Shown here piece after piece: positions 40,596 through 52,704 of a stretch of DNA of 64,000 bases. Position numbers and translations under genes: made by a program. Position 1 is the stretch's first letter. Each line of letters begins with the position of its first letter. The stretch is from Spongiivirga citrea (lineage in GTDB: Bacteria; Bacteroidota; Bacteroidia; Flavobacteriales; Flavobacteriaceae), in contig NZ_JAABOQ010000003.1 of NCBI RefSeq assembly GCF_010671565.1, forward strand, positions 496,001-560,000. The letters run 5' to 3'. Below the pieces are notes generated by a model. The model saw only the letters and a program-made list of their open reading frames with translations, did not search any database and was not told the DNA's origin.

Positions 40596-41363
40596 TTAAT
40601 AAATTCCATTATGTTTAAAGTAGCTGGCTAGCTCTGCAGTGGATGTTAGTTTTAGCTTTTTAATGATATTTCTGCGATGCGTATCAACAGTATGTGGGCT
40701 AATAAATAGCTTTTCTGCTATTTCGCGGCTGGATTTTTTTAGAATAAGTAGTCTAATAATATCCCTTTCGCGATTGCTTATATCCTGCTCTATGAGTTTT
40801 TGCGAGTAGTTGTTATAATATTTGGTTTCATACTCCCCATTTTGATTTAATTGCTTGGCCGATGCACATACATCTAACTTCATGTTTGCGTTTAAAGCGG
40901 TATAATGCGCTAGTCCGATAATGGGTTTATGGTCGCCATCTAGCTCCAAAGGTGTCGTGTTTTGAATGATGTTTACATACTCGTCATTCTTATTTTTTAG
41001 TCTGTAATTCCAAGTATAGTTCATCCGTAGTCGATCCTCCACTGGAATCTCACCTAAAGTATATACCATTAATCCCTTCAAGGCATTTAACCAAGGTTGC
41101 TGATCATCTGGATGAATGCGACTCCAGAAAAAATTCATGCCTTTTTCTTTTAACATATCTGAATCAAAACCAAGACTTATCGGCAAGTTCTTACTTACAT
41201 ATTCAAATGATAATTTGTGAGTGTTGGTGATACAGAAAAAGGTCGCACTGTGCGGTAGTAGCACGTCAAGTGCGCGCATGTTTTGAATGTGTTTTTCTAG
41301 GGTGACTCCTCCATATGATTTAAAGATGTCTCTATAGATCTCACGTATGCTTTTTAACTTCAT
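40596..41363 (-). CDS. PAS-domain LuxR-type transcriptional regulator
   Basis: A 255-residue regulator. A PAS-like sensor domain (about residues 35-165, with FFWSRIHPDDQQPWL and the PAS strand NYTWNYRLKNKNDEYVNI) precedes a LuxR/GerE helix-turn-helix (about 190-250: ISNRERDIIRLLILKKSSRE, then SPHTVDTHRRNIIKKL). No receiver domain, so the signal comes through the PAS fold. It is divergent from the H-NOX signalling operon with 178 bp between starts, and the LytTR-type site A lies in that interval. It may thus share control with, or control, that operon. Confidence 0.9.
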   Translation of the reverse strand: MKLKSIREIYRDIFKSYGGVTLEKHIQNMRALDVLLPHSATFFCITNTHKLSFEYVSKNLPISLGFDSDMLKEKGMNFFWSRIHPDDQQPWLNALKGLMVYTLGEIPVEDRLRMNYTWNYRLKNKNDEYVNIIQNTTPLELDGDHKPIIGLAHYTALNANMKLDVCASAKQLNQNGEYETKYYNNYSQKLIEQDISNRERDIIRLLILKKSSREIAEKLFISPHTVDTHRRNIIKKLKLTSTAELASYFKHNGIY

Positions 41364-41447: not shown

Positions 41448-41518
41448 CCATTCGTCGACACTAAACCTTCTATTCACCGAAACTTGATAAAAAATATTGG
41501 AACAATGAGCATCTTTAT
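41448..41518 (+). promoter_or_regulatory. LytTR-type site A and promoter (signalling operon)
   Basis: Half-site CCATTCGTCGACA (41448-41460) is followed 22 bp later by ATTCACCGAAA (41472-41482), a direct repeat with the 21-22 bp period typical of LytTR binding. A -7-like CATCTTTA starts at 41510, 50 bp after the half-site. The site suggests that the operon encoding the LytTR regulator controls itself. Confidence 0.65.
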
Positions 41519-41541
41519 AAAAACTTAATGTCTCCTTAGCA

Positions 41542-41952
41542 ATGAAAACACTATCAATTTTACTCATTGAAGACGATGAAATAGAATCTATTAAATTCAA
41601 AAGAGTACTAGATACTATGGTAATAAAATACAATCTAACTCTTGCAAAAAATGGGGAAGAGGCTCTGATATTGGTACAAGAGGAAAATAAAATCCCTGAT
41701 GTTATCTTCTTAGATCTTAACATGCCTAAAATGAACGGCACGGAATTTCTAAAAATTCTAAAGAATGATACAGCGCTAAAATATATACCGGCGATGATTT
41801 TAACTACATCCAATAATCGAGCAGATATTTTAGAGTGTTATGCTGTTGGAATTGCTGGTTATATTCTAAAACCTTTGAGGTACGAAGATTATAAGGAAAA
41901 AATACAAGTTGCTGTTGAGTATTGGTCGCATAATGAATTAATAAAATTATAG
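41542..41952 (+). CDS. CheY-like single-domain response regulator
   Basis: A 136-residue stand-alone receiver. Acidic pocket EDDE (about 10-13), phosphoacceptor Asp58 in VIFLDLNMP, and conserved lysine in GYILKPL. No output domain. First gene of a tight five-gene operon, joined without spacer to the H-NOX gene. It probably takes or buffers phosphate from the neighbouring kinase or HPt protein. Confidence 0.95.
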   Translation: MKTLSILLIEDDEIESIKFKRVLDTMVIKYNLTLAKNGEEALILVQEENKIPDVIFLDLNMPKMNGTEFLKILKNDTALKYIPAMILTTSNNRADILECYAVGIAGYILKPLRYEDYKEKIQVAVEYWSHNELIKL

Positions 41953-42492
41953 ATGAAAGGAATTGTATTCACAGAGTTTTTAGAACTTGTTGAAGATAAG
42001 TTTGGCATAGAAATGGTCGATCAGCTTATTCAAGAATCTGACCTAGCATCAAAAGGTATATATACCGCTGTTGGCACTTACGAATTTGCCGAAATGTTAC
42101 GTTTAGTTTCTAATCTAAGTAAAAATACTTCAATTACAGTTGACCAGCTACTTTGTGTTTATGGAGAACATTTTTTTGATGTTCTTAAAAGAGACTATCC
42201 TCAGTTTATTGCTTTGTATACTGACCCTCTTGAGATGTTATCTTCTATTGAAGATCATATTCATGTTGAGGTACGAAAAATATATCCAGATGCCGAGCTA
42301 CCTACTTTTGAAATCATAGAGAAAAAAGAAAATTCTCTAATAATGATTTACCGCTCAAGCAGAGCATTACATCAGTTTGGGCTAGGATTAATGCGCAAAA
42401 CATTTCTTCATTTTGATGAAAAAGGAAGTATTGAAACCGAAAATATAATTGACGATGGTACTGAGGTGAGGTTTAATATTCAAAGACTTTAA
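41953..42492 (+). CDS. H-NOX (heme NO-binding) sensor protein
   Basis: A 179-residue soluble heme sensor. The proximal heme ligand is His104 in HIHVEVRKIYPDAELPTF (seven residues before Tyr-Pro, as in soluble guanylate cyclase). The heme-propionate motif YxSxR is Tyr133-Ser135-Arg137 (YRSSR). Its stop codon shares one base with the kinase start (TAATG). H-NOX proteins encoded beside kinases typically inhibit or modulate the kinase when NO binds. A Tyr in the distal pocket would favour O2, but I cannot place that position reliably. Confidence 0.95.
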   Translation: MKGIVFTEFLELVEDKFGIEMVDQLIQESDLASKGIYTAVGTYEFAEMLRLVSNLSKNTSITVDQLLCVYGEHFFDVLKRDYPQFIALYTDPLEMLSSIEDHIHVEVRKIYPDAELPTFEIIEKKENSLIMIYRSSRALHQFGLGLMRKTFLHFDEKGSIETENIIDDGTEVRFNIQRL

Positions 42493-44081
42493 TGACCAAA
42501 GAAATTGAGATATTAAAACGTGCTTTAGCACGTGAAAAGGAGGCTAGAAAACAAGCCGAAAAAATTCTGGAGGAAAAGGCTTCCGATTTGTTTCAACTTA
42601 CAACCGATCTGCGCACGGCGAATGAAAAACTTGAGGGCTTGGTTAGCGAAAGAACATCGGAGTTAGAAGGTGTTTTCGAAAACATAATCGACTCATATGT
42701 TGTCATGAACTTGTCAGGTGATGTTCTTAAAATGAATGATGCGGCAAAAGAATTATTCGGCTACGATATTGATAAAGAGCCTCTAAATGTACTTAGTCTT
42801 ATTTATAAAGAAGACATTCCGTACGCCATGCAATCATATCAGGAATTGGTTAAAGAAGGTGCGTTTACAAATTACAATGCTCGAGTATATACAAAACATA
42901 GGGAAGTTAAGAATGTACAAATAAATGCCAGCCTTATTTTCAATGTTAAAAAAGAACCTATTGCCGCCCAAGGAATTGTAAGAGATACAACAGACCAGGT
43001 TAAAAACCAACAAATTTTTGAAGAGCAAAAGAAACAGCTAAGTGTCATTGTAGAAAACTCTTCGTTAGGAATTGTATTGACACAATACGGAAAAATTGTA
43101 CAAACTAATGGTGCTTTCCAACAGTTGTTAGGGTTTACCGCAGATGAGCTAGTTACAATGAATGTGCAGGATATCTCTGTTAAAGATGAATACCATACTT
43201 CAAAAGAAAAAATGGAAGCTTTGAATAATGGGGACATTGATAGTTTTAGTATTCAAAAAAAATACCGGAAAAAAAATGGCGGTGTCCTAACCGCCAAAAC
43301 TAATGTAAGTGCTGTTTGGGATGACATGGGAAACGTAAAGTATCAAGTTGCGATCATTGAAGATATGACTGAACAGCTAAAACAACAATTAAAGGAAAAA
43401 AAGCTGTTGAACGATCTAGAAAAAAGTAATCAAGAATTGAATGATTATGCCCATATTGTTTCTCATGACCTAAAATCACCTTTGCGCAGTATTAGTAGCT
43501 TGATTTCTTGGCTACAAGAGGATTATGCTCAAGTGTTTGACGAAAAAGCCAGCACCACTTTTGACATGCTTCATAAAAAAGTGGATAAAATGGACCAATT
43601 AATTAACGGGGTATTACAATATGCAAGTATTGATAGAATTGAGAAGAAAGTTTATGATATTAACCTGAACCAGATTGTACAAGATATTATTGAGGTTATT
43701 TATATTCCAGAGCACGCATCTATAACCATAACCAACAAACTACCAACCGTTCGAGGTGATGAATTTAGGTTACAACAGCTATTTCAAAATTTAATAAGCA
43801 ACGCCATAAAATACAATGACAAAAAAAAGGGTGTAGTAGAAATTGGCTGCAAGGAAAAAGAGCAGTTCTGGGAGTTTTCTATAAAAGATAATGGTATTGG
43901 TGTTGAGCATAAATATTTTAAAAAAATCTTCAATGTGTTTCAAAGCCTGGAAAGTGAGAATAATTCAACTGGAATAGGGTTGTCAATTGTAAAAAAAATT
44001 GTCGATTTTTATGGTGGCGCAATTTGGCTAACCTCGCAATTAGGAGAAGGAAGTACTTTCTACTTTACCTTAAAAAAATGA
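42492..44081 (+). CDS. PAS-containing sensor histidine kinase (H-NOX partner)
   Basis: A 529-residue soluble kinase: N-terminal coiled coil (1-60), two PAS domains (about 60-170 and 180-295), HisKA with His325 in HIVSHDLKSPLRS, and an HATPase domain (NLISNAIKYND, DNGIGV, STGIGLSIVKKIV). No membrane segment, consistent with a cytoplasmic gas-sensor partner. Starts on the last base of the H-NOX stop codon and overlaps the HPt gene by 4 bp, so the whole relay is translationally coupled. Confidence 0.95.
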   Translation: MTKEIEILKRALAREKEARKQAEKILEEKASDLFQLTTDLRTANEKLEGLVSERTSELEGVFENIIDSYVVMNLSGDVLKMNDAAKELFGYDIDKEPLNVLSLIYKEDIPYAMQSYQELVKEGAFTNYNARVYTKHREVKNVQINASLIFNVKKEPIAAQGIVRDTTDQVKNQQIFEEQKKQLSVIVENSSLGIVLTQYGKIVQTNGAFQQLLGFTADELVTMNVQDISVKDEYHTSKEKMEALNNGDIDSFSIQKKYRKKNGGVLTAKTNVSAVWDDMGNVKYQVAIIEDMTEQLKQQLKEKKLLNDLEKSNQELNDYAHIVSHDLKSPLRSISSLISWLQEDYAQVFDEKASTTFDMLHKKVDKMDQLINGVLQYASIDRIEKKVYDINLNQIVQDIIEVIYIPEHASITITNKLPTVRGDEFRLQQLFQNLISNAIKYNDKKKGVVEIGCKEKEQFWEFSIKDNGIGVEHKYFKKIFNVFQSLESENNSTGIGLSIVKKIVDFYGGAIWLTSQLGEGSTFYFTLKK

Positions 44082-44398
44082 AAGAAACACCCAATCTGAA
44101 CTATGTAAATGAACTAGCTGCTGGAGATTCTAGCATCAAGACAAAATTAATTAGCATAATGAAAAAGGAGTTTCCAGAAGAACGAGCCGAATTTATGCTT
44201 TATATGCAATCCGCGAATTATACTAAAGCATCCGAGCAGGTTCATAAGCTAAAACATAAAATCAACATTCTTGGTTTACAGGAAGGTTACGTTCTGGCTA
44301 AGAGCTTTGAAAACGACCTTAAGAAGAATATTATCTCTTTAAACAAAGGTTTTAGTAAATTGCTGGACACTATAGAAAACTACCTAAATACTTTGTAA
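44078..44398 (+). CDS. Histidine phosphotransfer (HPt) protein
   Basis: A 106-residue helical protein with the HPt signature VHKLKHKINILGL, phosphoacceptor His56. I start it at 44078 (MKETPNLNYV), where ATGA overlaps the kinase stop; an earlier in-frame start would run deep into the kinase gene. It should carry phosphate between the kinase and the two receivers of the operon. Confidence 0.9.
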   Translation: MKETPNLNYVNELAAGDSSIKTKLISIMKKEFPEERAEFMLYMQSANYTKASEQVHKLKHKINILGLQEGYVLAKSFENDLKKNIISLNKGFSKLLDTIENYLNTL

Positions 44399-44406
44399 CC
44401 TACATT

Positions 44407-45108
44407 ATGAATTGTATTATTATCGATGATGAGGCAACTGCCAGAGCTATTATTAACCATTTATGTAATCAAACCCCACAATTAAATGTTGTTTCTGAAT
44501 TTCCAAATGCAATAGAGGCTATAAAGTTCTTAAACCAAAATGAGATTGATTTAGTTTTTCTCGATATTCATATGCCTGATTTTACAGGTTTTGATTTTAT
44601 ACAAACGCTTAAGAATCCTCCTAAAATCATATTGACTACTTCTGATACTAATTTTGCAATTCAAGCTTTTGAATACGATTGTATTGTTGACTATTTAGTA
44701 AAACCTATTCAATTAACCCGATTTCAAAAAGCAATTGAAAAAGCAGAACAAATGACGATTGTCGAGGAAAAAACTTCAGTTCAAAAACAAGACGGGAACA
44801 ATGACCTTTTCGTTAATATTGATCGAAGGTTAGTTAAAATAAACATTCCTGATATTTATCTAGTTGAAGCAAAAGGAGATTATATAAATATCAAAACAGA
44901 ATTAAAAAATTATATTGTTCATTCAACCTTAAAGAAAATAGAGGAGAAACTACCTGATACGCTCTTCCTAAAAGTGCATAGGTCTTACATTATCAACACA
45001 AAAAAAATTATTGATATTGAAGACAATAGTGTTCTAATTAAACAAGATATAATACCAGTAAGCCGCGCAAATCGACCAGAATTAATGAGAAGGCTTAATT
45101 TCTTGTAA
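44407..45108 (+). CDS. LytTR-family response regulator
   Basis: A 233-residue regulator: receiver (1-120) with Asp53 in LVFLDIHMP, then a LytTR DNA-binding domain (about 130-233: LFVNIDRRLVKINIPDIYLV, then TLFLKVHRSYIINTKKI). LytTR domains bind pairs of 9-bp direct repeats spaced by about two helical turns. Four such pairs are seen in this locus (sites A-D), making this protein the likely master regulator of the exopolysaccharide genes and of its own operon. Confidence 0.95.
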   Translation: MNCIIIDDEATARAIINHLCNQTPQLNVVSEFPNAIEAIKFLNQNEIDLVFLDIHMPDFTGFDFIQTLKNPPKIILTTSDTNFAIQAFEYDCIVDYLVKPIQLTRFQKAIEKAEQMTIVEEKTSVQKQDGNNDLFVNIDRRLVKINIPDIYLVEAKGDYINIKTELKNYIVHSTLKKIEEKLPDTLFLKVHRSYIINTKKIIDIEDNSVLIKQDIIPVSRANRPELMRRLNFL

Positions 45109-45129
45109 TTACTCATCGAACCATCAATT

Positions 45130-45199
45130 CCATTCGTCGACAGTAATTTAACCTTCTGTCGATTAATCTGACATAAACGACTTTATGGGGCTAGTTTGG
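45130..45199 (+). promoter_or_regulatory. LytTR-type site B and promoter (outer-membrane channel gene)
   Basis: CCATTCGTCGACA (45130-45142), identical to site A, with the second half CTTCTGTCGAT at 45153-45163. The -7-like CTAGTTTGG begins at 45191, 49 bp after the half-site. The start codon at 45204 is so close that the message would be almost leaderless. Confidence 0.65.
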
Positions 45200-45203
45200 C
45201 CGT

Positions 45204-46730
45204 ATGAAAGCCCCAATTTTCATAGTTCTATTATTAATATCTACAATAGCTAAAACACAAGAAATTGATTCGTTGCTATTGCAGAGTTACGATATATATA
45301 AGAATGCGGACACCTTACTTCACTTCCCGAATTCAAAGGATGATATCGATATTAATATCTTTTCAATCGCAGCCAAAAGCAGCCCTACTTTATATGAAAT
45401 CAAATTAAAAGAGCTAGAATCTAACTCATATAAAAAAGATTGGGGGCTACAAATTAAAGCCAACAGCTATTACAACTTTAGGGGAGTGCTTGATGAAGAA
45501 ACGAATAACATAACAGTATCGAGATTTAGCGCTGAACTTGAGTGGAATATTCTAAAAGGAGGATTTGTTGCAAACAGATCAAGAGCAACTGCCACATTAC
45601 TTGAAAAACAACTATTAGATGATGCTTTAGATCAAGAAAATAGAATCATTTGGCGTAGACAATTTCGCTTGCATTATAACTATTCTATAAATCAAGAATT
45701 ATTAAATCACTTCGAAAGAAAAAATAAATTTCTGGAACGATACTTCGACATCCTAAATACTCTTTATGTAAAAAAAATGATCAAAAGAGAAGAGATCATC
45801 AATATCTCTAACGAACTATTAAAGAGTCGTGAGCAGTACAATCAAATAAAGTTTTATCAAGAAAACATTTCGGATAGTATCCCCCCTTTTTTCTTAAATA
45901 AGCAACTCCCTTTAATAAAACTTCAGTTAAGTGAAATTGATATCTCTAAATCAATAGAAAACGAGATTAAAACAACACTTCAAAAAAACATAATCCAGCG
46001 AGAAAATCGAGCTTTTAAAGACATCAAATTTTCATTATATGCTAATTACAACTGGACTGAAACTATGACAAGGCAATTTAGCAGCCCGGTAATAGGTGCC
46101 AGATTTAGTGCTCCTATCCGTTTCAATAATCGAAAAAAAATAATTCAAACCAAAATACAACAAGCAGAAGCTAAACAAGAAGATAATCTGATAGGTAAAC
46201 AAAATCAGCTTGTTACCTATTTGAGTGCACATCAAGAAAAAATAAAAGATATACATACACTCTACAAGCAGTGGTTAATACTCGAGCAACGAAAAAGAAT
46301 AGCTCAAATTGTAAGAGAGGAACTCGGAGTAAGTAACTGTGGATTATTGATGCTGCAGTATACAAAGGAACAATATGATGTCATTGAAAATGTACTACAA
46401 CTAAAAAAACAATTATACACTGTGGTTTCACACATTGTTGAGCTTAATCAAAAACAAGATGTTCGGCATTTAATCTCGTCGATTTCATTTAATCAAGATA
46501 ATACTTTGAATAATGTAGTTATTACAAAAAATTCCTTTTCACAAAAACTGCAATTTCAATTCCTTAAAGCAAAAAAGATAGAACGTGTACAAATGACATT
46601 TCGAGATCATTCATTTGAAGATTTACTTAAAAAAGAAGGTGTCGAAATATCATTCACAAAACCAGCTCCTAATGCCATTTTTTTAGAAAAACTGATTTCA
46701 GACGAATTAAAAATAATCGCTAAAAAATAA
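45204..46730 (+). CDS. TolC-like outer-membrane protein of the polysaccharide locus
   Basis: A 508-residue protein with signal peptide MKAPIFIVLLLISTIAKTQ and two long helical repeats separated by strand-rich segments (ANSYYNFRGVLDEE; SLYANYNWTETMTRQFSSP with APIRFNN), the pattern of outer-membrane efflux factors. Sequence beyond about residue 430 is an extra, non-TolC extension ending in KIIAKK. It is followed after 5 bp by a HlyD-like gene. Together they could form a periplasm-spanning conduit for the polymer made by the GT2 enzyme downstream. Confidence 0.85.
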   Translation: MKAPIFIVLLLISTIAKTQEIDSLLLQSYDIYKNADTLLHFPNSKDDIDINIFSIAAKSSPTLYEIKLKELESNSYKKDWGLQIKANSYYNFRGVLDEETNNITVSRFSAELEWNILKGGFVANRSRATATLLEKQLLDDALDQENRIIWRRQFRLHYNYSINQELLNHFERKNKFLERYFDILNTLYVKKMIKREEIINISNELLKSREQYNQIKFYQENISDSIPPFFLNKQLPLIKLQLSEIDISKSIENEIKTTLQKNIIQRENRAFKDIKFSLYANYNWTETMTRQFSSPVIGARFSAPIRFNNRKKIIQTKIQQAEAKQEDNLIGKQNQLVTYLSAHQEKIKDIHTLYKQWLILEQRKRIAQIVREELGVSNCGLLMLQYTKEQYDVIENVLQLKKQLYTVVSHIVELNQKQDVRHLISSISFNQDNTLNNVVITKNSFSQKLQFQFLKAKKIERVQMTFRDHSFEDLLKKEGVEISFTKPAPNAIFLEKLISDELKIIAKK

Positions 46731-46735
46731 TATCC

Positions 46736-47788
46736 ATGAGGACATTTTCTTATCAAAAAGAAACCGCAAAGATTCGAACTCTTAAAGAACCGGTAGTTAA
46801 AAAAAAGAGATTCAATTTTGACCGATTGATCTATTTTATTCTTGTTTTAATAGCATTTGGCTTTTTAGCAAAGTATCTATACACCAAAGTTGCAATTATT
46901 GAGGCGAACGGGATGGTGGTTATGGACAAGATAGATGTGAATTTTACACAGGACATAAGGCTTAAAAGATTACAGGTACAAGAGGGGGATTCTGTTTTAA
47001 TAGGTCAAAATTTATTCTCATACCAACAGCATGAGTTTGATAATGAAGCCGCAGTAATATTGAGGTCTCAGGAGAAAACCGATAAAAAAAACAGCCACAT
47101 ACAAAATTTACATTTTAAAATAGCTCAAAAAAGAATAGAGCGTAACAATCTGTATAATCACATAAATCAACTTGAGCAACAGCTTGATAAAATGATCAAG
47201 TTGGTTTTATTAGATGTCTATACGAAAGAAAAATTAGATGGGCTCAAAAATCAGATCTTATTAGTTAAAAACAAGATTTCACTACTTAACAATGAGATCA
47301 GTTTCTTGAATTCGCAAACTAAACTTTTAATAAATAATGGTAGTTCATCATCAAACCCTAACAAACTTCTTGACGACAAAGAAGGGGCTTCTAGTTATAG
47401 AAGTAATTACCGATCTCCCATCAATGGTATTATCGGGCAAATTCATAAGAATAAAGAAGAATCTTGCTACAAGGGTGAACAGGTAATGACCATACACAAC
47501 ACTGAAAAAGTCTTTATAAAAGCTTACTTTGAAATAAAAGATATTTCCGAAATTAAGGAAGGGGATATTGTTAATGTTACATTTCCTGATAACCGAAAGG
47601 GGAAAGGTGTTATCAGTAAATTATATGTATCAACATACACCGCGCCTACCGAGTTTCAAAACAAGTATGAACCTACACAACGTAATATTCTAGCTGAAGT
47701 ACTCCCTATACAAGATAATCAAAAGCCCAGCTGGAGCGCATATCATATGCTTAATGTTTCTATTTCACTAAATAAGGTGTTGGATTAA
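46736..47788 (+). CDS. HlyD/Alg44-like membrane fusion protein
   Basis: A 350-residue protein with a basic cytoplasmic start, one membrane helix (about residues 29-50), a lipoyl-like half (LKRLQVQEGDSVLIGQNLF), a coiled-coil hairpin (about 100-200), the second lipoyl half (YRSPINGIIGQIHKNKEES) and a beta-barrel. No PilZ domain is recognisable in the short N terminus, unlike Alg44. Membership in an operon with a TolC-like gene and next to a GT2 suggests a role in polymer export. Confidence 0.85.
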   Translation: MRTFSYQKETAKIRTLKEPVVKKKRFNFDRLIYFILVLIAFGFLAKYLYTKVAIIEANGMVVMDKIDVNFTQDIRLKRLQVQEGDSVLIGQNLFSYQQHEFDNEAAVILRSQEKTDKKNSHIQNLHFKIAQKRIERNNLYNHINQLEQQLDKMIKLVLLDVYTKEKLDGLKNQILLVKNKISLLNNEISFLNSQTKLLINNGSSSSNPNKLLDDKEGASSYRSNYRSPINGIIGQIHKNKEESCYKGEQVMTIHNTEKVFIKAYFEIKDISEIKEGDIVNVTFPDNRKGKGVISKLYVSTYTAPTEFQNKYEPTQRNILAEVLPIQDNQKPSWSAYHMLNVSISLNKVLD

Positions 47789-47812
47789 AAACCACCGGTC
47801 GTAGGATAATGT

Positions 47813-47882
47813 CCATTCGTCTACAGTGGCTCTCTATCAAACTAAAAACCTAAGCCTTACATCAATATCAAAACTACTTTAG
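47813..47882 (+). promoter_or_regulatory. LytTR-type site C and promoter (sugar dehydrogenase unit)
   Basis: CCATTCGTCTACA (47813-47825) with second half ATCAAACTAAA at 47836-47846, 21 bp on. The -7-like CTACTTTAG begins at 47874, 49 bp after the half-site, as in sites B and D. Confidence 0.6.
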
Positions 47883-47916
47883 TCTCAGAAATAATAACCC
47901 ATTAAATCTTTATATT

Positions 47917-49281
47917 ATGAACACGCAATTAAAATATAACCTACAAGTACGTTCGAAAAATCAACCTACTATTGGTTACAAACAAAGTGATCTTTTCAAG
48001 AAATTAAAAAGCAAAGAAGAACAAATCGCTGTAGTCGGCTTAGGGTATGTTGGTCTTCCCTTAGCTGTGCACATGGCCAATCACTTTAAGGTGGCCGGGT
48101 TTGATATTAGTGATGAAAAAGTAATACAAATTGCTCAACATCAAGATCCTTGCGGCGAATTATCATCCGATGAGTTCAAAGGAAAAGATATTGTTTTTAG
48201 TGCCAATGAAAAAGTGCTAGCCAAGGCAAAGTTTTATATCGTAGCTGTTCCGTCTCCTATAGATCATTTGAAAAAACCAAACTTAAGACCTATTATGGCT
48301 GCTACAGCTACTGTGGCTAACCATTTGAAAAAGGGAGACTGTGTAGTTTTTGAATCCACTGTATACCCTGGTTGCACAGAAGAAGTTTGTGTACCCATAC
48401 TAGAACGCATTTCTCGATTAAAATATAATGAAGACTTTACTATTGGTTATTCTCCTGAACGAATTAATCCAGGGGATACACAACATACATTTACAAGTAT
48501 TAAAAAAATAGTGTCAGGTAGCACACCAGAAGCGCTGGAAGTGATTGCTGATGTTTATGGAACTGCCGTAGAAGCTGGTATTTATAAAGCTTCCAACATT
48601 CGAGTTGCTGAAGCAGCTAAGGTTGTTGAAAACATTCAACGTGATGTAAATATTGGTTTAATGAATGAGCTTTCTCAAATCTTTAATAAGCTAGATATTA
48701 ACACGAAGGAAGTTTTAGAAGCTGCGGGGAGCAAATGGAATTTTCATAATTATTATCCAGGATTGGTTGGTGGTCACTGTATAGGAGTAGATCCTTACTA
48801 TCTAATCCACAAAGCAAAACAACATAAGATCGAGCCTAAATTACTCCAGCAAGTTCGTAAGGTTAATGAAAGCATGGTTCCTCATATTGTTAATGAAATC
48901 AGCAAACGTTTATATAGAAACGGTTTACAGAAGAAGCAACGTTCAATTCTTGTAAAAGGAATAACTTTTAAGGAAAATGTAAATGATATACGTAATTCAA
49001 AAGCAGCTGAACTTTGTCTTTCACTTAAAGAAAAAGGGTTTAAGGTATGTGTTCAAGACTACATGGCTAATGCTGACGAGGTAAAACAACATTATGGAAT
49101 TAAACTAACTAAAAGTACATCAGAACGTTTTGATGCAGTAGTACTTGCTGTAGATCATACAGATTATCAGCACTTAGCATATTTCGATTTATTGAAAAAC
49201 GCCAAAGAAGATGCAATAATCTTTGACATTAAAGGGAACATGAAAGACAAAATCCCTGCTAGTGTATATATGTCGCTTTAA
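47917..49281 (+). CDS. UDP-sugar 6-dehydrogenase (UDP-N-acetylhexosaminuronate-forming type)
   Basis: A 454-residue NAD-dependent enzyme of the UDP-Glc/UDP-ManNAc/UDP-GalNAc dehydrogenase family. Rossmann motif VVGLGYVGLP (about 40-49), YSPERINPG, the helix around VVENIQRDVNIGLMNE, and the catalytic cysteine in GGHCIGVDPYYL. It oxidises C6 of a UDP-sugar to a uronic acid; similarity of the core to TviB/WbpA suggests UDP-GlcNAc or UDP-GalNAc as substrate. It presumably supplies an acidic sugar to the GT2 polymerase, and heads the third transcription unit (site C). Confidence 0.93.
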   Translation: MNTQLKYNLQVRSKNQPTIGYKQSDLFKKLKSKEEQIAVVGLGYVGLPLAVHMANHFKVAGFDISDEKVIQIAQHQDPCGELSSDEFKGKDIVFSANEKVLAKAKFYIVAVPSPIDHLKKPNLRPIMAATATVANHLKKGDCVVFESTVYPGCTEEVCVPILERISRLKYNEDFTIGYSPERINPGDTQHTFTSIKKIVSGSTPEALEVIADVYGTAVEAGIYKASNIRVAEAAKVVENIQRDVNIGLMNELSQIFNKLDINTKEVLEAAGSKWNFHNYYPGLVGGHCIGVDPYYLIHKAKQHKIEPKLLQQVRKVNESMVPHIVNEISKRLYRNGLQKKQRSILVKGITFKENVNDIRNSKAAELCLSLKEKGFKVCVQDYMANADEVKQHYGIKLTKSTSERFDAVVLAVDHTDYQHLAYFDLLKNAKEDAIIFDIKGNMKDKIPASVYMSL

Positions 49282-49314
49282 TAATAAACAAGCCCCCTAA
49301 CAACAAACCAAGTC

Positions 49315-50700
49315 ATGTTAAATGTTCTAAGACATAATGACCGTACTAACAAGATTCAGTTTTCTGGTTATACCCTGTTGAGAGTTGATCATATCTCATC
49401 AATACAGCAAGAGTCACTAACTTTTGTTGACGCTATTATAATCGATACGGAAAATAATGAACATGCAACTGACTTGGTTTTTTTTATTCGTAAAAATGCA
49501 GATTTAGCTATTGCCTTAAAGCCAATTTTTATAAATAACACTTGCCAACTAAACAAAACATTTGAAATACATACCGACGGTTATATCGATCTTAATGAGC
49601 TTTCTATAGCTATTAATCGTGTTGATATTATCACTAAACGGTCCAAAAGAATTTCTCACAAAAATACTGTAGGTCATGATTATCAGGTAAAGCAAAAAAT
49701 ATTAGCTTTTTTATTTACAAGAAATAGTACGATTGTACCCATTACCAACAGGGCAAGTTTAATTGGATATAGCTTCCCTTTTATTGATCTTTTTTATAAA
49801 GAAGAAGAGGTCATGTCTAAATTATCAATGCTTGAAAAAAGTGTTGAATGCGGTCACCTGAGTACTAACCTAAAGGACTTTGTTCATTTGTGTAAGCGTT
49901 GTCATGGTAACTATCTTAATTTCGTAGAAGCCTGTCCTAAATGCGATAGCATCGATATCAAAGCACAAGATATTGTACATCATTTTGTGTGCGCCCACGT
50001 AGCTCCCGAAAAAGACTTTAAAACAAAAGATGGTTTAGCTTGTCCAAAGTGTGATAAACAGTTAAGACATATTGGAATAGATTATGACAAGCCCTCTTCT
50101 ATGTATAGCTGTAATTGCTGTAACCATGAATTTCAAACAGCAAAGATGATAGCTAAATGTATTGATTGTAATGCAGAAAATGAGCTTTCAGCTTTAATAA
50201 AAAAAGCCATAGGCTCTTATAGTATCACATCAGCCGGTGAAGAATGGTTAAGAGGAGGTGAAGAACAAAGTAGTCAAGTTTCGTTATTAAATGATGGGGT
50301 AATGACGCTGTCTTTATTCAAAATCATTGCTAGCCAGGAATTAAAAAGAATAACAATAAGTAAATCAACAAGCCAAATTGCACATATACTATTTGTAAAT
50401 GAACGTCTTGATACGTTTGATGATGCTACAAAAAAGTTATTAGTGAAAGAAATCGGTGCAATCATTAAATCGTATCTATTACCTAGCGATGTGATGGCCG
50501 CCGACAATTACAATTCTTACTATCTATTACTCCCAGAAACCAAAGAACAGTTCCCAAAACGTTTGGAAACCATTCAATATAATCTTGGGAAACTTTTAGG
50601 AGATAATTTGCAAGAGCGATTGTTAGATATTAAGATCCAAACTCACCAACTAATAGAAAAGGAAACAGTTGATAGTATTATAAAACAATTCCATAAATAG
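49315..50700 (+). CDS. TackOD1-type zinc-ribbon protein with a GGDEF-like C terminus
   Basis: A 461-residue cytoplasmic protein. The middle (about residues 130-315) carries three CxxC pairs, CKRCHGNYLNFVEACPKC, CPKCDKQLRHIGIDY and CNCCNHEF...CIDC, matching the TackOD1 output/metal-binding domain as I know it. The C-terminal 130 residues (AIIKSYLLPSDVMAADNYNS, then YYLLLPETKEQFPKRLE) follow the fold pattern of a GGDEF domain but lack the GGDEF signature, so cyclase activity is not expected. It ends one base before the GT2 gene and may regulate the synthase by binding a ligand. Confidence 0.75.
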   Translation: MLNVLRHNDRTNKIQFSGYTLLRVDHISSIQQESLTFVDAIIIDTENNEHATDLVFFIRKNADLAIALKPIFINNTCQLNKTFEIHTDGYIDLNELSIAINRVDIITKRSKRISHKNTVGHDYQVKQKILAFLFTRNSTIVPITNRASLIGYSFPFIDLFYKEEEVMSKLSMLEKSVECGHLSTNLKDFVHLCKRCHGNYLNFVEACPKCDSIDIKAQDIVHHFVCAHVAPEKDFKTKDGLACPKCDKQLRHIGIDYDKPSSMYSCNCCNHEFQTAKMIAKCIDCNAENELSALIKKAIGSYSITSAGEEWLRGGEEQSSQVSLLNDGVMTLSLFKIIASQELKRITISKSTSQIAHILFVNERLDTFDDATKKLLVKEIGAIIKSYLLPSDVMAADNYNSYYLLLPETKEQFPKRLETIQYNLGKLLGDNLQERLLDIKIQTHQLIEKETVDSIIKQFHK

Positions 50701-50701
50701 T

Positions 50702-52021
50702 ATGTCGTTCCATATAGAAAATATAGTCCCTGAATATATTAACTATTGGCATGAAGTAGGTTTGTCAAAGTTTATAAGAGTATTCTGGTATTTTATTTTG
50801 TTTGAGTTTACTCGATATATAGTTATTGATTATATCATCGCATTTATATTCGGGGCTAATAAAAAAAAACGGGCTGAAAAATTCGAAAAAGCGCGACAAC
50901 TACTGCGTCTTGAAAATCCATTTGTGTCGGTAATTATCCCTGGAAAGAATGAAGGTAAACATCTGTTTAAACTTACAAGATCATTAGCAGAACAAACTTT
51001 TTCTAATTTTGAGCTTATCATTGTGGATGATGGCTCTGATGACGACACTCCAATAATTGGAAAAAACTTAGAACGCTTGGGTTTAATTGATAAGTTTATC
51101 AGAAATGAAATGCGAGGAGGTAAAGCTTCTGCTGCTAATCTGGCTTTGCGATATAGTAGTGGAAAATTCATAGTACATCTAGATGCTGATTGTTCCTTTG
51201 ATTATGATGCAATTGAAAATGTATTGGTTCCATTTTATATGAGCCCAAAAATTGCTGCTGTAGGAGGTAATGTTAAAGTTAGAAACTATAAGGAAAGTTT
51301 GTGTTCCAAATTACAAGCAATAGAATATTTAAAGACTGTTTCGGTAGGTAGAATTATCACTTCCTATCTTGGAATTTACAAAATAATATCGGGTGCTTTT
51401 GGTGCCTTTAGGGCCGATGTTATTGATGCTATCGGGGGTTGGGATATAGGTCCTGGATTAGATGGCGACATTACGGTTAAAATTAGAAAATCAGGATATA
51501 AAGTTTGTTTTGAACCTAGTGCAATTTGCCTTACAAATGCACCTTCAAAATTTAAAGTACTAACCAAGCAGCGTTTGCGCTGGGATAAATCTATCATACG
51601 ATTTAGGGTTCGTAAGCATAAAGACGTGTATTTCCCTAATGCTAATTTTAGTTGGTCTACTTTTTTTGCGCTTGCTGAAAATGTTTTTTACAATGTAGTC
51701 CTTGACATTTTGTGGTGGTTTTACATCATTGATATCATCATCAATTATAGCAGTCAGCTACAATTTGTCATCCCCATGAACTTTACCCTCTATTTTGTAA
51801 TGAGTTATGTACAGATGTGTAGCATCTATGTCTTTTCAGAACGAAGAAAAGAAGAATTATACCTTTGGCCTTATGTATCCTTAATGAGCATTTACACCGG
51901 CACGTACCTTCGTATTGTACGCACCGCTGCTTATTATAAAGAGTTCTTTTTTAAACGATCTTTTGAAGATACATGGAATCCCTATAAATCATCTGCTCAA
52001 GCAAAAAAGGCAGGCTTGTAA
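50702..52021 (+). CDS. Processive family-2 glycosyltransferase (polysaccharide synthase)
   Basis: A 439-residue membrane synthase. N-terminal helix (about 25-55), GT-A domain with IIVDDGSDDDTP, the DxD motif in VHLDADCSFD, the acceptor-site LDGDITVKIRKSG and the processive signature KQRLRWDKS (QxxRW), then C-terminal membrane helices (about 320-410). The family includes cellulose, hyaluronan, PNAG and alginate (Alg8) synthases that extrude the chain while polymerising it. With the dehydrogenase, HlyD-like and TolC-like genes it forms a synthase-dependent exopolysaccharide system. Product unknown, probably acidic. Confidence 0.92.
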   Translation: MSFHIENIVPEYINYWHEVGLSKFIRVFWYFILFEFTRYIVIDYIIAFIFGANKKKRAEKFEKARQLLRLENPFVSVIIPGKNEGKHLFKLTRSLAEQTFSNFELIIVDDGSDDDTPIIGKNLERLGLIDKFIRNEMRGGKASAANLALRYSSGKFIVHLDADCSFDYDAIENVLVPFYMSPKIAAVGGNVKVRNYKESLCSKLQAIEYLKTVSVGRIITSYLGIYKIISGAFGAFRADVIDAIGGWDIGPGLDGDITVKIRKSGYKVCFEPSAICLTNAPSKFKVLTKQRLRWDKSIIRFRVRKHKDVYFPNANFSWSTFFALAENVFYNVVLDILWWFYIIDIIINYSSQLQFVIPMNFTLYFVMSYVQMCSIYVFSERRKEELYLWPYVSLMSIYTGTYLRIVRTAAYYKEFFFKRSFEDTWNPYKSSAQAKKAGL

Positions 52022-52042
52022 CCAATAAACAAATTCTTACTT

Positions 52043-52113
52043 CCATCCATCTACAGTAAACGTCCATCCAACGAAAAACAAGTGTCATAAAAGACACTTA
52101 CAGCTAATTTTAG
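52043..52113 (+). promoter_or_regulatory. LytTR-type site D and promoter (small-protein gene)
   Basis: CCATCCATCTACA (52043-52055) with CCATCCAACGAAA (52064-52076), a clear 21-bp direct repeat. The -7-like CTAATTTTAG begins at 52104, 49 bp after the half-site. It places the small gene at 52138 in the same regulon. Confidence 0.65.
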
Positions 52114-52137: not shown

Positions 52138-52362
52138 ATGAAATGGATTGGAAATAAAAATTGGAAACACGTTAAAACCGGAGATGGATATCATTTAAAA
52201 GCTGAATTTTTAAGACCCTCAAAATTTTGGTGGATTGTCTATAAAGGCAATGAAATAGTACGTGTATCAAGAAACGAAAATGATCTTGAACCTTCATTAA
52301 TAATGGCACAAAAAAGAGCACAGTTATCAATGATTCATCACATTAAAAAAACATCTGGTTAA
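52138..52362 (+). CDS. Small hypothetical protein, member of the LytTR regulon
   Basis: A 74-residue, aromatic-rich basic protein (MKWIGNKNWKHVKTGDGYHL, then SKFWWIVYKGNEIVRVSR), with no signal peptide or membrane helix. I recognise no family. It has its own site D and promoter, so it is expressed with the exopolysaccharide genes and is likely part of that function. Confidence 0.65.
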   Translation: MKWIGNKNWKHVKTGDGYHLKAEFLRPSKFWWIVYKGNEIVRVSRNENDLEPSLIMAQKRAQLSMIHHIKKTSG

Positions 52363-52704
52363 ATAACGGATAAGATCTTTAACTGCTATATGTTATGAAG
52401 ATTTAGGTTTTGTAAATACTCCACCTGATTATCATGTACAGCTTAAACGTATTGTCCCCATAAATAAAGCGGTTGGTCCAACCAACCGTTCCCCTTGCTT
52501 ACTCAAGGTGGCGTCAGTAGAAATATTGGCGCCTTTTGGTTCATTAAAAAAGCCTCCCAATTTCTCAAAAGGCTCATTTTAATTCTGAGGTCCCACATAG
52601 ACTTCCCGATACTCGTCCCTCGATCGGGATAAACTTCTCGCCTATATCGAATACAAACAAAAAAGACGCTAGCCCAATTACTAACGTCTTTTCAAAATAT
52701 ATGT
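52363..52704. other. Intergenic region with hairpins, no gene
   Basis: Contains the stem CGGTTGG/CCAACCG (52470-52476 with 52482-52488), a weaker AAGG.GGCG/CGCC.TTTT stem near 52505-52537 that may terminate the preceding transcript, and a fragment (TTCCCGATACTCGTCCCTCG, then GATCGGGAT) resembling the dispersed repeat at 36405-36540. No credible reading frame. Confidence 0.55.

Follow-up and report, generated by a model that had tools for sequence, protein, structure and literature searches.

The closest described relatives of the system reported here are two kinds of LytTR regulators and the signalling pathways that start from an H-NOX protein (papers are cited by their PMC numbers, for the excerpts used here). 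AlgR, the LytTR regulator of alginate in Pseudomonas aeruginosa, has the footprinted core CCGTTCGTC (PMC4064291), and its sites at algD are single and scattered (-470, -394 and, reversed, -45). PlnC and PlnD of Lactobacillus plantarum recognize two 9-bp tandem repeats with a spacer of 12 bp between them, immediately ahead of the core promoter, and their regulatory operon carries these repeats as well (PMC2714321). H-NOX/kinase pathways have been described in Shewanella and in Vibrio harveyi (HqsK-LuxU-LuxO); their outputs are cyclic di-GMP (c-di-GMP) enzymes or LuxO, and the relay of V. harveyi runs through the phosphotransfer protein LuxU (PMC6769237). Here, we describe four putative operators in a 64,000-nt stretch of the Spongiivirga citrea genome (contig NZ_JAABOQ010000003.1, positions 496,001 to 560,000; hereafter the window), which are very probably binding sites of a REC-LytTR response regulator encoded at position 44407, within an operon that also encodes an H-NOX protein.

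The half-site found here, CCATTCGTC, agrees with the AlgR core in 8 of 9 positions, and 6 of the 258 sites found in relatives are exactly CCGTTCGTC; unlike the AlgR sites at algD, however, the window sites are strict direct repeats at 21-22 bp, beside a promoter and fed by an H-NOX operon. The layout of 9+12+9 bp, and hence the 21-bp period, is the same as that of PlnC/PlnD (PMC2714321), which bears out the remark of the initial annotation that the spacing agrees with LytTR binding, whereas the half-site, the peptide signal, the bacteriocin targets and the -35/-10 promoters of PlnC/PlnD are different. With the H-NOX pathways of Shewanella and V. harveyi the system shares an H-NOX protein paired with a histidine kinase, a biofilm-type output and, with the latter, a phosphotransfer protein (PMC6769237). 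In contrast to the outputs known for those pathways, the candidate output here is a LytTR regulator that has an operator of its own, and GGDEF enzymes, the mark of a c-di-GMP output, were matched at E<=0.001 in 0 of 16 LytTR-carrying genomes, compared to 8 of 14 control genomes.

The closest solved relatives of the window H-NOX are the Kordia algicida chains 6BDD (E 1.3e-74) and 6BDE (E 1.9e-75). The 6BDD protein has been called NO-sensing (NO, nitric oxide), while the excerpt describing it gives no downstream pathway (PMC7356049). In the K. algicida locus (L289), the H-NOX resembles the 6BDD chain by eye and belongs to an orthologous operon with a LytTR gene and sites. A search of open-licence papers found none that describes this switch, and none that joins H-NOX, LytTR and Bacteroidetes, or H-NOX and Bacteroidota.

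Putative operators in the window

The sites, their conservation, their geometry and their co-occurrence with the regulator were computed, using a scoring matrix and a sequence model (R1) built from 37 sites of 14 other genomes with the host excluded. The initial annotation had placed four first half-sites at 41448, 45130, 47813 and 52043, each followed 21-22 bp downstream by a second half and 49-50 bp after the first half by a -7 element, and all of these placements were recovered. The first halves are intergenic and on the + strand, the second halves start 22, 22, 21 and 21 bp downstream of them, and the -7 elements, counted from the first base of each site, begin at +61 to +62, equal to 49-50 bp past the 13-bp first half. 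The elements are as follows.

41448..41460, +: site 1, first half CCATTCGTCGACA, preceding the signalling operon; matrix score 48.4, R1 E-value 2.9e-8
41470..41482, +: site 1, second half CTATTCACCGAAA, offset +22, by matrix
41510..41517, +: site 1, -7-like element CATCTTTA, weak; top match in range, at the same offset as in the other three sites
45130..45142, +: site 2, first half, preceding the TolC-like gene; matrix score 35.3
45152..45164, +: site 2, second half CCTTCTGTCGATT, weak; matrix score 4.8
45192..45199, +: site 2, -7-like element TAGTTTGG; top -7 match in range
47813..47825, +: site 3, first half, preceding the dehydrogenase unit; matrix score 26.2
47834..47846, +: site 3, second half CTATCAAACTAAA, offset +21, by matrix
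47875..47882, +: site 3, -7-like element TACTTTAG; top -7 match in range
52043..52055, +: site 4, first half, before the small-protein gene; matrix score 44.1, R1 E-value 1.1e-7
52064..52076, +: site 4, second half CCATCCAACGAAA, offset +21, by matrix
52105..52112, +: site 4, -7-like element TAATTTTA; top -7 match in range

The first halves read CCATTCGTCGACA in two sites and CCATTCGTCTACA and CCATCCATCTACA in one site each, and the consensus derived from the four is CCATYCRTCKACA; the second halves are weaker throughout. From the first base of the site to the start of the gene, the distance is 94, 74, 104 and 95 bp for sites 1 to 4, respectively. Even though the -7 element played no part in finding these sites, its best match within a 55-nt range fell at an identical offset in all four. 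The -7 element of site 2 (45192) ends 4 bases ahead of the ATG at 45204, so that either this transcript would be leaderless or the start codon is wrong. Site 1 lies inside the interval that the signalling operon shares with a divergent gene for a PAS-LuxR-type regulator (40596-41363, - strand).

No other place on either strand of the window reached a matrix score of 9 (with a first half of at least 4 required), and the top score in 60 dinucleotide shuffles of the window was 19.2. The host genome (4.15 Mb) was searched both by pattern and by R1. With R1, the window sites ranked 1, 2, 3 and 6 among the 30 places listed, a ranking that is only partly independent since the training sites had been found via the window consensus. 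Among 58 candidate loci (28 from the pattern, where the matrix was scored at the matched place alone, and 30 from the model), the best score outside the window was 17.8, against 26-48 inside it. CCATYCRTCKACA has five exact copies genome-wide, four of them the window sites; allowing one mismatch, there were 28 matches, compared to 10 for a backwards control. The fifth exact copy (C11:411911) was considered as an additional regulon member and rejected, as it is located within an open reading frame, lacks a second half and scores 12.0. A generic sigma-70 scan found promoters to be no commoner than in shuffles (48 vs 48.3).

Co-occurrence of the motif with the LytTR regulator

In 12 of 15 relatives, CCATYCRTCKACA was found with at most one mismatch (exactly in 8) no more than 200 bp ahead of the orthologous receiver gene, while none of the 15 had it in antisense. 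Among 60 genomes (the host and 59 relatives), all 16 with a LytTR protein of at least 62% identity carried the motif at E<=1e-4, 14 of these having supplied training sites; G038, with a LytTR protein of 51% identity, carried it as well and the other 43 did not. A survey of 249 genomes of the family found the LytTR orthologue (E<=1e-60) in 97, the motif (E<=1e-3) in 94 and H-NOX in 92, with LytTR and motif together in 88. After removal of the host, G018 and the 14 training genomes, the motif was present in 72 of 81 genomes with the 44407 orthologue versus 6 of 152 without it, kinship being ignored in these counts for the 233 further genomes. Overall, the motif occurs in 91 of 235 genera sampled. 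Of the six genomes with a motif and no orthologue by search, G203 does carry the orthologue and the contig of G129 ends inside the kinase gene. In two pairs of genomes from the same genus (G262/G006 and G268/G017), the first has both LytTR and motif and the second has neither. H-NOX is present in 86 of the 97 LytTR genomes, and 8 of the 11 lacking it (one a training genome) keep the motif; the operator therefore follows LytTR and not the sensor.

Across 80 named loci (1.52 Mb), 258 sites were found in sense and 5 in antisense, with none in one shuffled strand of each locus; at least one locus (L282) comes from a training genome, and overlapping pairs in tandem arrays were counted separately. 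All but three of the sense sites (255) are intergenic, 72 of the 80 loci have sites, and the receiver gene is preceded by a site in 64 of the 73 loci that have one. Since site and spacing are found again, together with the orthologous regulator, in many related flavobacteria, the sites are very probably its binding sites, and the initial reading of a LytTR regulon is strengthened by the consensus before the receiver genes, by the co-occurrence, by the AlgR-like half-site and the PlnC-like spacing and by sites at matching places in three similar gene clusters (below).

Geometry of the putative operator and its promoter

The repeat period, for which only 20-22 bp were allowed, was 21 bp in 230 of the 258 sites, 22 bp in 24 and 20 bp in 4. 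A logo of 87 sites, chosen by score and by offset including that of the -7, gave CCATTCRTCTACA, CCATTCATCGAAA and (T)AnnTTTG; in the last element A was conserved in 93%, the three T in 99, 98 and 87%, and G in 84% of sites, and the leading T in 43%. The promoter consensus of Bacteroidetes consists of a -7 element, TAnnTTTG, and a -33 element. Of these, the -7 was at a fixed place in all four window sites, while no -33 element was found, columns +34 to +61 of the 87-site logo all having at most 0.46 bits. The arrangement has the marks of a LytTR operator, with two direct repeats of about 9 bp at 21-22 bp and a cognate REC-LytTR gene that is nearby and co-occurs.

The matrix offset of the -7 in overlapping pairs, where a third half-site is present, is +79 to +82 for 25 of the 33 cases with a good -7 element, and in single pairs it is +59 to +62 for 101 of 144 and +80 to +82 for 26. 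The -7 thus shifts when a third half-site is present and keeps its distance from the last pair, in 21-bp steps, which would fit an activator touching RNA polymerase. In relatives, the operators of the signalling operon often have at least three tandem half-sites at 21-22 bp (L060, L063, L165, L173, L180); the window copy has two.

The signalling operon

Five genes make up the operon behind site 1 (41542-45108).

41542..41952, +: single-domain receiver (REC) protein; Pfam PF00072, E 8.3e-21; Asp58 in 110 of 110
41953..42492, +: H-NOX protein, putative haem NO sensor; PF07700, E 9.1e-40; nearest solved chains 6bde/6bdd
42492..44081, +: PAS-PAS histidine kinase; Pfam HisKA, HATPase_c and PAS
44078..44398, +: Hpt-like phosphotransfer protein; PF01627, weak (E 0.017, under its cut-off); His56 in 109 of 109 homologues
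44407..45108, +: REC-LytTR response regulator, presumed to bind the sites; PF04397, E 1.6e-20, and PF00072; Asp53 in 116 of 116

The initial annotation had included the signalling operon in the regulon, and a site does precede it; what had been missed is that the operon encodes an H-NOX haem sensor and a phosphorelay, the residues of which are invariant or nearly so in homologues. Hallmarks of H-NOX domains are the haem-ligand histidine and a YxSxR motif. In addition to the PF07700 match, the candidate ligands His102 and His104 are present in 93 of 95 and 95 of 95 sequences, and the Y and S of the motif in all 95 and the R in 92. By analogy with the Kordia protein, the window H-NOX may bind NO selectively. 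Whereas the window operon has one kinase, more than one kinase-like stretch is seen in the operon of many relatives (L061, L065, L066, L171 and others). In addition, G154 has a tandem pair of LytTR orthologues (G154:C1:1376298-1378238; 70 and 67% identity).

In the mechanism that we propose, H-NOX would sense NO via its haem and control the adjacent histidine kinase, and phosphate would pass from the kinase to the receiver (41542), to Hpt (44078) and to the LytTR regulator (44407). Phosphorylated LytTR dimers would then bind the two 9-bp direct repeats, which are two helical turns apart. As the operator is located directly upstream of a promoter with a -7 but no conserved -33 element, the regulator would most likely activate transcription. 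Its targets would be the signalling operon itself, as feedback, and genes that make and export an acidic-sugar polysaccharide. The assignment of the operators to the regulator is well supported; binding itself, activation rather than repression, the NO input, the sign of its effect, the order of the relay and the nature of the polymer are inferred. Taken as a whole, the likely function of this locus is in our view to switch matrix genes in response to NO and without c-di-GMP, with an H-NOX phosphorelay activating them through the 44407 operators.

Putative target genes in the window and in relatives

Sites 2, 3 and 4 precede the following genes.

45204..46730, +: TolC-like outer-membrane protein; label of the initial annotation, retained because the gene recurs beside an HlyD gene, with no Pfam or NCBIfam match at E<=0.001
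46736..47788, +: HlyD-type membrane fusion protein; PF13437, E 1.3e-6
47917..49281, +: nucleotide-sugar dehydrogenase, nearest to the TviB (UDP-GlcNAc C6 dehydrogenase) model; TIGR03026 above cut-off; NF011729 407.6 bits, under the cut-off of 592
49315..50700, +: TackOD1-domain protein; PF18551, E 3.9e-52
50702..52021, +: GT2 polysaccharide synthase, PgaC/NodC-like; PF00535, E 4.8e-24; TIGR03937, E 3e-48, under cut-off
52138..52362, +: small protein of 74 amino acids; no Pfam match at E<=0.1

These look like slime-polysaccharide (matrix) genes. The algD gene encodes a nucleotide-sugar dehydrogenase, and AlgR sites likewise precede such a gene together with exopolysaccharide genes. TackOD1 was named from archaea and is a domain without a known function (PMC5847659). 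The C-terminal part of the window protein has the look of a degenerate GGDEF domain by eye, which was not confirmed, and a structure prediction from two sequences was too poor for use (pLDDT, the predicted local distance difference test, 39.1). A terminator-like hairpin follows the small-protein gene on the + strand (52510-52533), and three others were seen on the - strand (52470-52693).

Homologues of the TackOD1 protein (E<=1e-15) were found in 5 of 248 genomes, in every case with an H-NOX or LytTR gene no more than about 5 kb away. All six flavobacterial clusters examined (the window, L164, L165, L166, L167 and L317) have TackOD1 beside a nucleotide-sugar dehydrogenase and a GT2 synthase. 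The gene set of the window is repeated in L164, L165 and L166, where sites stand ahead of the genes for the receiver, the TolC-like protein and the dehydrogenase (one of them weak, 12.3), and L164 has an additional site after GT2, ahead of a different gene. In L317 (Tenacibaculum holothuriorum), sites of at least 20 precede the receiver gene and follow GT2. L167, the second system of G158, with a LytTR protein 39% alike, has no site of at least 11 and is a natural negative control. At E<=0.01, none of the other four genomes with TackOD1 gave a match to the small protein; in L319, the gene next after LytTR encodes a homologue (49%) and is preceded by a site scoring 19.2.

Among the 258 sites, 60 stand ahead of genes that were not in the query set, and the operator in relatives is often found ahead of genes for adhesin-like (Por_Secre_tail), STAS, flippase (PF13440) and GT4 proteins. 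The GT4 gene (E<=1e-100), which the host lacks, was found in 63 of 248 genomes, 61 of them with a LytTR orthologue by search and the remaining two being G203 and G129. Sixty upstream regions were obtained from 66 GT4 matches; 39 of these (3 in training) have a site of at least 20, located 92-146 bp before the start, compared to 0 of 60 in antisense (maximum 18.7) and 0 of 1200 mononucleotide shuffles. In G123, a GT4 gene with sites is 2.3 Mb from the LytTR gene along the contig, a distance that falls to about 1.75 Mb for a circular chromosome. The claim of the initial annotation that the four sites define one regulon is supported; it was incomplete, the regulon probably being a matrix switch conserved across relatives.

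Weight of the evidence and alternative explanations

Several observations weigh against this reading. Within the window, site 2 has a poorly matching second half (CCTTCTGTCGATT) and site 1 a poorly matching -7 (CATCTTTA), the R1 E-values of sites 2 and 3 are 0.043 and 0.41, and the relatives' sites behind R1 were collected with the window consensus. L059, L066 and L070 have no consensus before the receiver gene, L317 has no site of at least 20 before its TolC or dehydrogenase gene, and 21 of 60 GT4 upstream regions lack such a site. Shared descent inflates the co-occurrence of motif and regulator. The motif at E<=1e-3 is missing from 9 of the 97 LytTR genomes, although G073 and G259 among them have sites by matrix, and a third same-genus pair breaks the pattern (G260 with LytTR and no motif, G003 with neither). 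Conversely, of the six genomes with a motif and no orthologue by search, G021, G031 and G181 have weak motif matches (E 1.8e-4 to 8.6e-4), and G072:C9 (L168, L325) has receiver, H-NOX, kinase and sites, with Hpt and LytTR not found on its 24-kb contig. The Hpt assignment is a weak Pfam match, and the host genome has 24 LytTR domains. Loss of the G072 LytTR gene to the contig end was considered and rejected; the gene is not on that contig. The G072 H-NOX match contains a TAG.

A regulator that represses the four promoters, or both represses and activates them, with NO relieving repression, is possible, if rather unlikely. The sign is not fixed by anything in the sequence, and the activator PlnC and the repressor PlnD share the same repeats (PMC2714321). 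However, an operator that keeps a constant distance to a -7 downstream of it where a conserved -33 is lacking, and a third half-site that shifts the -7 by one 21-bp repeat, are what we infer to be typical of activation.

It is doubtful that the system is instead a general control of matrix or attachment driven by PAS or partner signals, in which H-NOX senses redox or CO or is accessory. The kinase does have two PAS domains, the operons of many relatives have additional kinase-like stretches, and 8 of the 11 LytTR genomes without H-NOX keep the motif; yet H-NOX accompanies LytTR in 86 of 97 genomes, and the K. algicida H-NOX 6BDD is called NO-sensing (PMC7356049).

That the sites are real operators of another binder, either a different LytTR protein or the divergent PAS-LuxR protein at 40596, appears quite improbable. 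Such a binder could be sought among the 24 LytTR matches of the host or in the LuxR gene diverging from the interval with site 1, and G072 has sites with no orthologue on its contig. In contrast, the motif tracks the 44407 orthologue across the 233 genomes, and G033, which lacks the orthologue but has 19 other LytTR relatives, is without the motif. In addition, the LuxR gene was not found (E<=1e-6) in the 17 stretches of about 20 kb around the LytTR genes of relatives to which the search was confined. Chance similarity or a dispersed repeat family without a role, to which the lone half-site matches elsewhere in the genome might point, is hardly credible given the position, strand, spacing and conservation of the sites and the spread of the motif over the genera sampled.

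Implications

The chances seem about even that some two fifths of the Flavobacteriaceae genomes sampled share one c-di-GMP-independent NO switch, with an H-NOX phosphorelay, an AlgR-like LytTR activator, a 21-bp-phased operator and matrix modules that vary among species (TackOD1-GT2 synthase or adhesin-STAS-flippase-GT4). Because a crystal structure of the Kordia algicida H-NOX exists, the whole of this prediction is open to testing. Wherever a genome has the orthologue, regulon members can also be predicted from the operator. If the proposed switch is true, it would explain the role of H-NOX where no GGDEF enzyme is found, and it would provide an operator, a regulator and a signal for the control of the extracellular matrix in a large bacterial group.

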